This document shows, piece by piece, positions 19,373-26,067 of a stretch of DNA of 35,280 nt. Source of the DNA: an uncultured Desulfobacterales bacterium (GTDB lineage Bacteria; Desulfobacterota; Desulfobacteria; Desulfobacterales; JAFDCJ01); contig CAMYLH010000009.1 of assembly GCA_947259065.1 (NCBI GenBank), positions 1 through 35,280 of the forward strand, in the 5' to 3' direction. The notes under the pieces are model-generated. The model was not told the origin of the DNA and did not search any database. It saw only the letters and a list, made by a program, of their open reading frames with translations. The translations under genes and the position numbers were made by a program. Positions within the stretch are counted from its first letter, which is position 1. The number at the start of each line of letters is the position of its first letter.

Positions 19373-21269
19373 ATGCGAAATGGTCGTAAATCGGAGTGGC
19401 AAAATAAAATTGTAAATCCGGCGCAGGTAATGAAAAAGCTCGAACCCGGAATGAGTATCTTCCTTGGCACCGGCGTCGGTGAGCCCAGAACGCTGGTTAA
19501 ACACCTGATGTCTACCGATTCGGCCCATCTTAAGGATCTCGAATTGATCCAGCTGGTTAGTCTTGGGGATGCCATATCCGTGGAAGCATTAAACACCAAT
19601 GCCTACCGGCTGAAAACGTTCTTTTCAGGTTGGGTAGCCGGTGAGGCCATCACGGCCGGACAGGTGGATTTGATCCCGAGCAGTTTTTCCCGGATTCCCA
19701 AATATATCGAATCCGGAAGAATCCGGATTGATGTGGCGTTTATCCAGATTACACCGCCCGACGAAGCCGGATATTGCAGCCTCGGTGTGGCAGTCGATGT
19801 TTCGCGCCAGGCCATGGAACAGGCATCTTTGGTCGTCGGCGAAATCAACTTCGATATTCCGACGACTTTCGGTGATACATTTGTTCATGTGTCGGATTTT
19901 GATTATCTTGTCCGTTCCACCGAAAAGCCGATCTATTTTTGCCGCTGGCCGGTGGACGACATTTTTGACCAGGTAGCAGCCAACGTAGCTTCCGTTATTG
20001 AAGACGGCAGTTGTCTTGCTTTTTCGCCCGGCCCTTTGTTCGAAGCTTTGAGCCGGCATTTGGTACGCAAACAAAACCTTGGTATCCACACGCCTTTTTT
20101 CACTGATGCGGTAATGGATATCGTCAAAAGTGGCGCCGCTACCAACCGGCAAAAGAAAATTTTCAGAGGTAAATCCTTGACCTCCTATGCCTTTGGCACG
20201 CCGGATTTGATGACCTGGCTGAACCGCAACCCCCTGGTGGAATTTCAGGGTATCGACAAAGTGTTTACTCCGGCTCAGATCGGCCAGAATCCCGGCTTTG
20301 TCGCCGTGCTGCCGGCACGCAAGGTGGGGCCGCATTGCACTGCATTTTGGCAAAGGCAACGTAACAGCCGGCCCGGGTGACATTATCGACCTTTTTCATG
20401 GAGCCGAGTTGTCCCGAGGAGGAATGACTATTTTTGGTTTGCCGAGCCGGAATCGAGACCACAAACCGAATATCCTGATTTCCGTTGAGGATTTTCCCAA
20501 TCAATTGAGCCTTCGCGAATCAGTGGATATGGTCATTTCCGAATACGGCGTTGCCAGCCTGAGCGGACGCACGGTGCGGGAACGCGCCCAGGCTTTAATT
20601 GAAATCGCACATCCGGATGACCGCTTAAACCTTGTACATCAGGCCAAAAAAGAAAAGATCATTTATCCAGACCAAATTTTTCTGGCAGAATCCGCTCACC
20701 TCTATCCGGCAGAAATTAACGTCCAGCATACCTTCAAGGGCGATTTGAAGGTGCGCTTCCGGGCCATTAAACCTTCCGACGAGGAAGAAATGCGCCGCCT
20801 TTTTTATCGGTTCTCCGACCAATCGGTTTATTACCGGTATTTTGCCCCCATAAAGACGATGCCCCATTCAAAGATGCAGGGCTATGTCAATATTGATTTC
20901 AGCCGGGCAATGTCTATTGTCGGTGTCGTCGGGGAGCCCGGTCAGGGCCATATCATTGCGGAAGCCAGATTTATAAAGGATCAGAAGCGCCCTCTGGCAG
21001 ATGTTGCATTTGTAGTGGATGAACAATACCAGGGTAAGGGCATCGCGACATATTTATATAGAATGCTAATCCGGCTGGCCAAAGATCGGGGAATCCAGGG
21101 ACTAACGGCCGACGTCTTGGCCTCAAACATAGGCATGATGAAAGTCTTCGAGAAAGGAGAAACTACGGTCACGGCCAAGTTAGACTGTGGAGTATACCAC
21201 TTGAGCATTCCCCTTGATGCCGAACAATCAGCTATCAAACCCGGGTTGAGTGATTTTAGCCGAAAATAA
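19373..21269 (+). pseudogene. acetyl-CoA hydrolase/transferase - GNAT acetyltransferase fusion, split by an apparent frameshift
   Basis: ORF 19373-20380 gives the N-terminal CoA-transferase part up to FVAVLPARKV; ORF from 20298 continues in the +1 frame with GRIALHFGKGNVTAGPGDIIDLFHGAELSRGGMTIFGLPSRNRD... then GNAT VRFRAIKPSDEEEMRRLFYRFSDQSVYYRYF. Junction near 20328. Confidence 0.85.
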
Positions 21270-22345: not shown

Positions 22346-23998
22346 TTGTTAATAATATCAACTTATCAGCATTTTTATTGCACGATTCCGGTTAAAATTC
22401 TCGAATCCCTTGAATTCTTGGAATCTATTGCAGGGAAATATTCACTAAAGCTGGGCCAAAAAATGCCGATAAAAACCGTATATCGTTGTGCTGATCCATC
22501 TAATTCAAACCAACTTCAGGTAGAGATCATGACAGAAATAAATCGGGAAGAAAAAGACTCGAACGCAATATCCGCGGATGTTCCACTGGAAGCAAAAACC
22601 ATGGTCATGTCCCGCACAGAGGAAAAAATAATCGGACCTCGGCTGGTCTGCACAACAGCCTCGGGCGAAAGTAGAATCTACCCGCTCAAGGAAACCAAGC
22701 TTGTCATCGGGCGCTCTGTGGAGGCCGATATCAATCTGCTTGATCCTTTGATCTCCCGTAAGCACTGTGTGATTGAAAACACGCAAGACGGATTTATCCT
22801 TAGAAATGTAAGCACAACTAACCCGCTGTTATTAAATGATAAACCAGTAACCGAAAAACGACTTTACACCGGAGATCAAATAAGGATCGGTTCTGCGACG
22901 CTGGCATTTATTTCAGATCGAGCCCAGGATGAAAAAAAACTGGATACCAAAATGCTATCCCAGGCTAAAAATTCGAGATGGGGTATGTGGTTTGTCGTAT
23001 CTTTGCTGATTATTTTGGTGGGATATTTATCTTATTTTAAGGCCTATACGCCCTTAAAAGTCAACTGGGCGCTATCCGCCGTTTCCAAACAGATCAAATT
23101 GGGAAAATACCTGTCGGCACAAAATTCCCTAAAACATCTATTAGACCTGAATCTATCTGCGGAGCACAGGGACCAGGCGAAGGAACTTCTGACTGAGTCA
23201 ACCCTGGCCATTATTCAGCAAAGGGCTCAAACCGAAGACCTCCATGCGGTGATTGAATATTTGAAGACATACCTGGTGGAATATGGTGCCGGCAAAGAAT
23301 CGGAAGTTCTCTGGGATCGGCTGGATTATTATCGTTTAACACAGGCACAACGTCTTGAATTGGCCACGGACTTCCAGCCGGCCCTAAGGCAATATGCATC
23401 CATTAAAGAAGACAGCATTTATTTCGAAGAAGCACACAAGGCCATAGGGCGAATTTGGTTGGCCCACCAGAAACGACCTCGTAAAGATCAAACACTGGCA
23501 CAGCTTTTAAAGGAGGCTGAAACCCATTTTCGAGCTCAGCGTTATCTCAAACCGGTGAATCAAAATGCCTATCTTCTCTATCAAGCTGCCCTGACACTGG
23601 AACCCGGAAATGGGCTGGCGCTGAAACGCATCGGCCAGATGAAGTCTTTTTACCGTGAAAACGGTGAAAAGTATTTTTTACAAGGAAATTGGCCTCGGGC
23701 TCTATCTTATTTTGAACGCTATTATTTGATCGATACCGAGACCAAAGAAATAAATCATAAAATGATAATTTGCCGGGAAAAATTGACAGAGGCCAGGGTG
23801 TTGAACCAAGAAGCCGGGTCTGCTAAAACTTCATCAGAAAAAATGGTGAAGGGAAAAAAGAATAACCATCTTGAGCAGACCGAAAAGAAGGAAGAAATCA
23901 AGCGGTTGTTGGAAGAGTCGGGGACCGAAAGTACCTGGATCATGAAATACCTTTTCGAGGACCAGCAGGGTGAAATCGAATCCGAAAAACCCTGGTGA
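22346..23998 (+). CDS. FHA domain protein with one TM helix and a TPR-like C-terminal region
   Basis: FHA core LVIGRSVEADINLLDPLISRKHCVIENTQDGFILRNVSTTNPLLLNDKPV; TM WFVVSLLIILVGYLSYF; alpha-helical TPR-like repeats after it; true start possibly ATG at 22529. Confidence 0.85.
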   Translation: MLIISTYQHFYCTIPVKILESLEFLESIAGKYSLKLGQKMPIKTVYRCADPSNSNQLQVEIMTEINREEKDSNAISADVPLEAKTMVMSRTEEKIIGPRLVCTTASGESRIYPLKETKLVIGRSVEADINLLDPLISRKHCVIENTQDGFILRNVSTTNPLLLNDKPVTEKRLYTGDQIRIGSATLAFISDRAQDEKKLDTKMLSQAKNSRWGMWFVVSLLIILVGYLSYFKAYTPLKVNWALSAVSKQIKLGKYLSAQNSLKHLLDLNLSAEHRDQAKELLTESTLAIIQQRAQTEDLHAVIEYLKTYLVEYGAGKESEVLWDRLDYYRLTQAQRLELATDFQPALRQYASIKEDSIYFEEAHKAIGRIWLAHQKRPRKDQTLAQLLKEAETHFRAQRYLKPVNQNAYLLYQAALTLEPGNGLALKRIGQMKSFYRENGEKYFLQGNWPRALSYFERYYLIDTETKEINHKMIICREKLTEARVLNQEAGSAKTSSEKMVKGKKNNHLEQTEKKEEIKRLLEESGTESTWIMKYLFEDQQGEIESEKPW

Positions 23999-24010
23999 TT
24001 CAAGGCTTGA

Positions 24011-25525
24011 ATGAAAAACGTTATTTTCGCAGTAATATTAGGCTTATTTATTCTCACGGGGAACACATCCTGTATGCTTCGGATGCTCCAACCTCCGCCT
24101 GCCCCGGCAGTACTTGAGGAAGATCAGCTTCCAACCAAAATCGCTATATTACCCTTTGATAACCAAACAGCCAATCCTGAAGCCGGTGACCTTGTCCGCA
24201 AGATGTTTTATAATTTTTTCAGTTCATTGAATTACCTGGACCTTGAGCCGTATGTCATCGACGATAACCTGAAAATCAATCATCTATATGCCGAAATAAT
24301 CGCCGGGGAAGATATTTCGCCGCAAAAACTGGGCCAGTTGCTGGGAGTGGATGCCGTTATTTACGGAGAGGTTCTCAGTCTGGGTAAAACGTATGCCCTC
24401 TTATATTCCGACAATCAGGCCGGACTCAAAGCACGGATGGTTCGATGCAATTCGGGTCAGGTACTGTGGCAGCTCAAACACACCATCCATTTAGAGGAAG
24501 GGGATTTGCCCATAAGCCCCATCGGGTTGGCGACGACTGTCGTCAAAACTGCTATCAGTCATCACCAGGCCTCTCATATGAAAGCAGCTGCTGAGTTGTG
24601 CATGCAGATGGTCGCGACAATCCCGAACCCGCCCGCGGTCAGCGAGGCGCCGCCTAAAATTCAAGCCCTGGTTCATAACGGCGCCGGCAAGCTGGTTCAA
24701 CCGGGGGAATATCTGAAAGTGGCAATGATCGGCGAAGAAAACCAAATCGCCAGCTGGAGCGTTCCGCCACTTATCGAGAGCCTCCCCATGAAAGAGAAAC
24801 GGCCGGGTGTCTACATCGGCGCCTATCGCATTAAAGACCGGGATCGATTGCCCCATGGTCGAATGGTTGGATATCTCAGGGCAGAATCAGGTGTGGGCAG
24901 CCAATGGATAGATACCCTGGGTCCGGTCAAGATCGGTAAACCCACTGTGCTGCCGGCCGTGATAACCACCGATTATGTGTTGGATATCGAAAAAAGCCCG
25001 TATCTTGTCAAAGATGCGTTGGTGGTTAAACCCGATGCCAAGCTCACCATAAATGCGGGAACGGTGATATGGTTTAACAGCCTTGGAATGATTGTGAAAG
25101 GTGAATTACAAATTTTAGGGACCAGAGATGATCCGGTCCGTTTGTCCAGTCTGAGCATGACAAGCTGGAAAGGCATCATTTTGGACCGCAGCCAATCCGA
25201 TAATAAAATCAGCTTTTGCACGATATCCAATGCAGAATTTGGCTTCAGAGCGTCTCATTCAAATATCTCCATTCATAACAGCCGGTTTCAGGACAATGAC
25301 TGGGGCATCGCAATGGAAGAATGCAAGGCTGAGATTTTAAACAGTTTAGTTCGAACATCGACAAAATCAGGGATTGCAGCCCGCAAGACTCAGCTTTTGA
25401 TCAAGGGTTCCATTATTACAGAAAACAGTTCCGGAGGGATTTTACTGGAAAACAGCCAGGTCCGAATCGCGCAGAATAATATACTGAACAATGGCGGCTG
25501 GGAGATCAAAGTTCTCGACGGCTAA
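24011..25525 (+). CDS. putative lipoprotein: GNA1162/CsgG-like N-terminal domain plus right-handed beta-helix C-terminal domain
   Basis: signal MKNVIFAVILGLFILTGNTSC; KIAILPFDNQTANPEAGDLVRKMFYNFF, LGVDAVIYGEVLSLG; C-terminal GTVIWFNSLGMIVKGELQILGTRDDPVRLSS and repeated N-S-x beta-helix rungs; may continue in another frame to 25613. Confidence 0.75.
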   Translation: MKNVIFAVILGLFILTGNTSCMLRMLQPPPAPAVLEEDQLPTKIAILPFDNQTANPEAGDLVRKMFYNFFSSLNYLDLEPYVIDDNLKINHLYAEIIAGEDISPQKLGQLLGVDAVIYGEVLSLGKTYALLYSDNQAGLKARMVRCNSGQVLWQLKHTIHLEEGDLPISPIGLATTVVKTAISHHQASHMKAAAELCMQMVATIPNPPAVSEAPPKIQALVHNGAGKLVQPGEYLKVAMIGEENQIASWSVPPLIESLPMKEKRPGVYIGAYRIKDRDRLPHGRMVGYLRAESGVGSQWIDTLGPVKIGKPTVLPAVITTDYVLDIEKSPYLVKDALVVKPDAKLTINAGTVIWFNSLGMIVKGELQILGTRDDPVRLSSLSMTSWKGIILDRSQSDNKISFCTISNAEFGFRASHSNISIHNSRFQDNDWGIAMEECKAEILNSLVRTSTKSGIAARKTQLLIKGSIITENSSGGILLENSQVRIAQNNILNNGGWEIKVLDG

Positions 25526-25596
25526 TGAAATTCCCGCCGGAAATAAGATCATCGGCCCCGTCGCCATTCAACCGACTTTAAAAGAACCGATTGAGT

Positions 25597-26067
25597 TTAA
25601 GATTTTGGAATGATATGTTTCTCCAACCAAGCGTCCAGATCCTTGAGCACCCGTCTTCGCTGATCCTTAGCTTCATTGTAGATCTCGTGATACAGTCCAT
25701 CATAGACATGCAGGGTTTTGTCATCGAGGTTCAGTACTTTATAAAATTTTAAGGAGAAGCGGGCACTCACCAAATGATCGTCACCAGCCACCTGCAGCAA
25801 AATCGGAAGCGTCAAACCTGAAGCCTGTGCATGCACGGTTTCCATAGCGGCTAATAATTCGGTGAATAAGCGCGCGCTGACACGGTCGTGCACCCGGGGG
25901 TCGCTTTCATAGGCACTGACCACCTTCGGATCGTGACTGACTTTGCTGGCATCCAGTCCATTTCCCATGGTCAATCCCGGCCAGATGGCGGACATCAATG
26001 ATCCAAGTACCCTTTTTACACTGGGAATTTCAATAACCATTCCAAGAGCAGGCGATGAGGCAATCAC
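25597..26067 (-). pseudogene. N-terminally truncated alpha/beta hydrolase (monoacylglycerol lipase / serine aminopeptidase S33-like)
   Basis: starts mid-domain at GVIASSPALG; catalytic Asp (VAGDDHLVS) and His (GLYHEIYNE) present but the nucleophile-containing N-terminal half absent; in-frame stop just upstream (..TAA ATT AAG CAG GAT TTT TTT GAC GGG GTG ATT). Confidence 0.75.

Follow-up and report, generated by a model that had tools for sequence, protein, structure and literature searches.

Two adjacent genes in the 35,280-nucleotide stretch of DNA analysed here (the window), from a Desulfosarcina-like bacterium, encode proteins that we read, with a probability of about one half, as a trans-envelope couple for phosphothreonine signalling, derived from a T6SS-associated accessory module and operating today without the injection machine. 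Gene 1 (22529..23998, + strand) encodes an FHA-TM-TPR inner-membrane protein of 489 amino acids. Gene 2 (24011..25525, +) encodes a lipoprotein, 504 amino acids long here and about 545 in relatives, in which Pfam, alignment and an AlphaFold2 model distinguish GNA1162-like, Ig-like and beta-helix parts. The genes lie on the same strand with 12 bp between them, as the initial annotation had recorded. Paralogues of the pair are linked to kinase and phosphatase genes and to T6SS islands; the window pair accordingly has the look of a secretion-linked signalling module that has come to stand alone.

Domain structure of gene 1

The listed open reading frame begins with TTG at 22346, but the start of gene 1 is most likely the ATG at 22529, 183 bp further in, because same-genus relatives begin there and AGGTAGAG precedes that ATG. 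An FHA domain at residues 38-128 (22640..22912, +) is apparent from Pfam (PF00498, scoring 56 bits where the cut-off is 20.7), alignment, AlphaFold2 model and fold search alike. The residues that mark a phosphothreonine reader (G-R, S-R-x-H and N) are all in place, with G61-R62, S76-R77-x-H79 and N98/N103 invariant in each of the 15 aligned gene 1 sequences. Many relatives of gene 1 possess an extra N-terminal FHA domain, absent from the window's genus, in which the SRxH histidine has been lost. Since the contact residues have stayed invariant while this extra domain degenerated, selection would seem to maintain a phosphothreonine reader, and we infer that phosphothreonine is the ligand.

The FHA domain is followed by a single TM helix at residues 152-170 (22982..23038, +), identified by hydropathy and contained in a modelled helix spanning 151-190. 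Basic residues are found just ahead of it, on the FHA side, and the predicted topology is N-in/C-out; because of their position, the TPR part and the C-terminal motif should be periplasmic. The AlphaFold2 model (mean pLDDT 72) comprises an FHA sandwich, the TM helix and a helical solenoid reaching to approximately residue 430, with a low-confidence linker between the solenoid and the C-terminal motif. The solenoid (residues 182-430; 23072..23818, +), predicted to be periplasmic, is TPR-like according to the model, a weak TPR_9 match and a TPR structure among the fold matches. Searching the PDB with the gene 1 protein yielded FHA and TPR matches only, including the FHA structures of YscD/PscD. 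The FHA domain, one TM helix and TPR-like region of the initial annotation are thus borne out. The charged tail described there is also present, but it is not merely charged: few stretches of the protein are as strongly conserved as its last ~35 residues. These residues contain the motif RLLEESGTESxWIMxYLFE...PW (residues 453-489; 23885..23995, +), whose form LLEESGxESxWIMxYLFE gave significant matches only within the gene 1 family when 292 genomes of the order were searched. Docking to the lipoprotein, if it occurs, would most plausibly involve this motif. A strict link between motif and lipoprotein, in keeping with a remote relative (L090) that has neither, was rejected: another remote protein (L110) ends in ETASWFSTYL with no lipoprotein gene adjacent, so the link is suggestive only.

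Assignment of gene 1 to named FHA families was tried and rejected in three cases. TagH (TIGR03354) scored 38.4 bits against a cut-off of 120.25 and gliding GltG (NF033760) 30.5 against 650, each over the FHA part only, and the alignment with EspA was likewise limited to the FHA part and far below cut-off.

Domain structure of gene 2

The lipoprotein begins with a signal peptide (24011..24073, +) ending in Cys21 (TSC), which closes a hydrophobic N-terminus, is invariant in 15 sequences and is the predicted site of lipidation, as befits a GNA1162 lipoprotein. The domain that follows (residues 41-196; 24131..24598, +) scores 54.5 bits for the GNA1162-like family PF05643, whose cut-off is 25.9, and belongs to that family. 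The GNA1162 crystal structure, 4HRV, was matched by this domain at sequence level and again in a fold search with the gene 2 model (E 2e-6). In the AlphaFold2 model (mean pLDDT 74) the GNA1162-like part is succeeded by an Ig-like beta domain (residues 215-310; 24653..24940, +), with strands mostly at high confidence and matches to Ig-like folds, and by a right-handed beta-helix (residues 315-504; 24953..25522, +), with pLDDT mostly 80-95 and a match to PF13229 (Beta_helix) above its cut-off. The beta-helix of the initial annotation is therefore upheld. Of its CsgG/GNA1162-like domain the GNA1162 half stands and the CsgG half falls, no CsgG match having been obtained for gene 2 at E up to 0.1 in the Pfam profile search.

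The window copy of gene 2 stops about 40 residues before the end of its relatives, with two stops after DG, while the relatives' lipoproteins continue through a conserved NWWG stretch. Sequence and alignment with relatives reveal an out-of-frame remnant of the C-terminus, NEIPAGNKIIGPVAIQPTLKEPIEFKILE, at 25524..25613 (+). Two neighbouring genes are likely to be frameshifted as well. An acetyl-CoA hydrolase/GNAT gene at 19373-21269 is split between two overlapping frames, where relatives have one ORF of ~590-630 amino acids (L063, L032), and a hydrolase ORF of 156 amino acids near the pair (25597-26067) has about half the length of its relatives (286-313 amino acids; L031, L032). Because of these two genes, and of the fragmentation of the genome (929 contigs, 80% complete), sequencing or assembly indels are as likely as true decay of gene 2. 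Unless a sequencing error accounts for the break, truncation of its lipoprotein may leave the window copy impaired.

Conservation and linkage of the pair

Of the 292 genomes surveyed in the order, 12 have a strong match to gene 1, defined over its TM-TPR part at E below 1e-100, and 13 a strong match to the lipoprotein. Gene 2 accompanies gene 1 in 12 of 12 genomes; in the only one of the 13 that lacks gene 1 (G183), the lipoprotein gene lies at the edge of a contig. Whenever a genome has both in complete form, they are neighbours in identical order, and this in several genomic contexts. The main locus, a conserved housekeeping one common to two families, lies upstream of radical SAM, SelD and RNase R genes. 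Elsewhere the pair adjoins a dynamin-like gene (L034, L036) or sits in islands; in L034 a kinase-trypsin-TPR gene follows. Named records among the relatives with the pair are assigned to Desulfobacterales, one of them to a Desulfosarcina sp., and more remote relatives occur in other families of the phylum. The neighbourhood is thus conserved beyond the window genome; lack of such conservation was what the initial annotation had named as a refutation of its reading. Promoter and terminator scans of the window locus gave results at chance level.

Two further observations concern individual loci. In three genomes from a single family (L035 2471-3349; L037 6044-6862; L038 13109-13924), a small second GNA1162-like lipoprotein gene lies a short way upstream of the pair and is transcribed divergently from it. 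A pair closely similar to the G172 island copy is present (L062 8295-11167) in a record labelled Candidatus Aminicenantes (CP070750.1), through either horizontal transfer or mixed assembly.

Kinase, phosphatase and T6SS context

The Ser/Thr kinase partners anticipated in the initial annotation were found beside paralogous copies. In G172 (CP070746.1) a second pair has Ser/Thr kinase and PP2C genes ahead of it and co-directional (L040 4729-10536), the whole forming an operon kinase-PP2C-FHA/TPR-lipoprotein. In G145 a second lipoprotein gene adjoins PP2C and double-FHA genes, and the remote relative in G560 (L090) is placed among two kinase genes, one PP2C gene and one double-FHA gene. Kinase, PP2C and FHA genes thus share an operon or island in the paralogues of G172 and G151 and at the remote L090 locus, but not at the window locus: the window genome encodes kinases and PP2C, and no kinase or phosphatase gene lies next to its pair. 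The G151 operon (L111 9954-11971) has the same gene order and is decayed, its kinase and PP2C (93% and 85% identical, respectively, to those of G172) being better preserved than the pair, both genes of which follow as fragments. A separate GNA1162/beta-helix gene adjoins one that combines subtilase and Ser/Thr kinase domains in a single chain (L050 11524-14781).

Some relatives are linked to T6SS. One contig (L061) has a full T6SS, encoding TssK, TssL, TssM, TssA, TssB, TssC, Hcp, ClpV, VgrG, DUF2169, pentapeptide, DUF3540 and PAAR-like proteins; the T6SS genes are followed by an FHA-transglycosylase gene and then by the pair, with a lipoprotein 43% identical. In the G172 island, DUF2169-pentapeptide, DUF3540, TssB-TssC fusion, FHA-cyclase and double-FHA genes are found near the paralogue; DUF2169 genes reportedly co-occur strictly with T6SS spike genes (PMC11883445). 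In a further lineage (L091) the pair occurs with a TssBC-like gene and an FHA-histidine-kinase gene. The pair of the window lies away from any T6SS locus, and neither TssC nor TssK was found in its 80% complete genome, leading us to set aside a T6SS there. TssK was also missing from 11 of the 13 genomes with the pair, including G200 (95% complete), G028 (97%) and G088 (97%), and the TssC search agreed, except for a partial match in G116. The idea that the pair lies outside any known secretion locus consequently holds for the window copy and fails for the paralogues and deepest relatives; as these are in T6SS islands, the module is not without known context.

A tree of the lipoproteins, rooted with CHASE2-linked and other distant lipoproteins and having long branches, has L061 and L091 branching earliest, the island copies next and the core copies last, the clade of the latter having support of only 80/79. 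Because copies from T6SS islands branch deepest, an origin of the module together with such islands is the simplest reading, and descent probably ran from T6SS island to stand-alone pair.

Some features of the islands deserve mention in their own right. The FHA-transglycosylase of L061 (6817-8289), immediately before the pair, is a fusion of FHA and lytic transglycosylase (SLT) domains. In L071 (15507-17078) TssB-like and TssC-like sheath domains (PF05591 + PF05943) occur in one protein, and similarly divergent TssC matches of about 500-580 amino acids recur in some 20 of the order's genomes, frequently alongside a normal TssC. A protein of ~260 amino acids recurs in T6SS islands (L071 12672-13448; L073 12019-12801; L091 2922-3704); its L071 and L073 copies have no Pfam match, and its gene directly follows the lipoprotein gene in L073 and L091.

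Proposed mechanism and alternatives

In the signalling couple that we favour, the cytosolic FHA domain of gene 1 would read phosphothreonine. The protein would span the inner membrane once, exposing the TPR solenoid and conserved C-terminal peptide to the periplasm, where they may engage the GNA1162/beta-helix lipoprotein anchored in the outer membrane. Hanks-type kinase and PP2C activity in the cytosol would in this way be tied to what state something at the outer membrane is in, or how it is assembled. The signal might run as in the T6SS pathway, with TagQ at its head, or inside-out, the data being compatible with either. In the window lineage the module would act alone, in genomes without T6SS. 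The initial annotation had suggested such a link between phosphothreonine signalling inside and a lipoprotein of the envelope, and as a reading it finds support here; contact between the two proteins, and the output, are what we infer in it. The proposal that the pair is a stand-alone phosphothreonine relay, departed from T6SS and coupling cytosolic Ser/Thr kinases to the lipoprotein through a TPR bridge and docking peptide, is a tentative one, plausible at somewhat less than even odds.

Alternatively, the FHA domain could be purely structural, of the T3SS YscD or gliding GltG type, and the pair a static bridge between inner and outer membranes for the assembly of an envelope machine. Gene 1 matches PF16697 (Yop-YscD_cpl) above cut-off, resembles GltG weakly and retrieved the YscD/PscD structures mentioned above, and a GNA1162-type fold is also seen in PelC and LpoB, which are outer-membrane lipoproteins. 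However, a structural FHA domain would not need the phosphothreonine-binding residues that are invariant here, the degenerated domain is the extra N-terminal one of the relatives rather than the reader, paralogues adjoin kinase and PP2C genes, and the GltG score of 30 compares with a cut-off of 650. We consider a static bridge unlikely, if still to be reckoned with. It is distinctly unlikely that the pair serves a T6SS encoded elsewhere in the same organism and missed through genome incompleteness: the island locations of paralogues and remote relatives and the 80% completeness of the window genome would allow it, but the lack of TssC and TssK in that genome, and of TssK in 11 of the 13 with the pair, G200, G028 and G088 included, argues otherwise. 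There is a slim chance that the lipoprotein forms a pore or surface fibre, as in CsgG/curli or in PelC-like exopolysaccharide export, with the FHA protein regulating it from the inner membrane; PelC-like folds do appear in the fold search of gene 2, against which stand the missing CsgG family match and the finding that no conserved polysaccharide synthase or fibre subunit gene lies beside the pair at the main locus. Slimmer still is the chance that the genes are neighbours by descent and functionally independent, since the two have remained neighbours at several loci unrelated to one another and in islands of differing kinds, even though further neighbours are also conserved at the main locus.

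The signalling couple offers a route, open to testing, by which the outer membrane could sense threonine phosphorylation in the cytosol, a process seldom followed from molecule to molecule in bacteria. It also suggests that the regulatory part of a T6SS island may split off from the weapon and be retained for housekeeping; if the stand-alone relay is real, a T6SS kinase module is in use without an injection machine. The poorly understood GNA1162 lipoprotein family gains a possible partner and context.

Comparison with known systems

We found no paper in the open-licence literature that joins GNA1162/DUF799 to FHA or T6SS. Among the closest known systems is the T6SS threonine-phosphorylation pathway, in which PpkA phosphorylates Fha1, described as cytoplasmic, PppA reverses this and the outer-membrane TagQ heads the signal (PMC10482370). 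The paralogue islands share with this pathway (PpkA, PppA, Fha1, TagQRST) a Hanks kinase, PP2C, FHA and an outer-membrane lipoprotein. They differ in that the FHA of gene 1 is fused to TM and TPR parts, unlike cytoplasmic Fha1, and in that the lipoprotein is of GNA1162/beta-helix type; moreover, the window pair lies outside any T6SS. TagH/VI_FHA (TIGR03354) is likewise an FHA protein tied to T6SS, but gene 1 aligns with it over the FHA part only. The FHA - TM - periplasmic layout recalls inner-membrane scaffolds of the YscD/GltG type, whereas gene 1 has no family-level match to these beyond the FHA fold.

The N-terminal domain of gene 2 resembles Neisseria GNA1162 (PF05643, 4HRV) by both sequence and fold; unlike that protein, gene 2 adds Ig-like and beta-helix domains and has an FHA partner. 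The CHASE2-linked lipoproteins (L043, L046, L049) also combine GNA1162 and beta-helix parts, at about 30-37% identity, but are about 900 amino acids long and have CHASE2 rather than FHA-TM-TPR as partner. Their genes lie near those for a CHASE2 protein, a CHASE2-cyclase or both, and in L043 and L046 a CHASE2 gene immediately precedes the lipoprotein gene. The GNA1162/beta-helix type of lipoprotein thus seems to pair with another inner-membrane partner, CHASE2.
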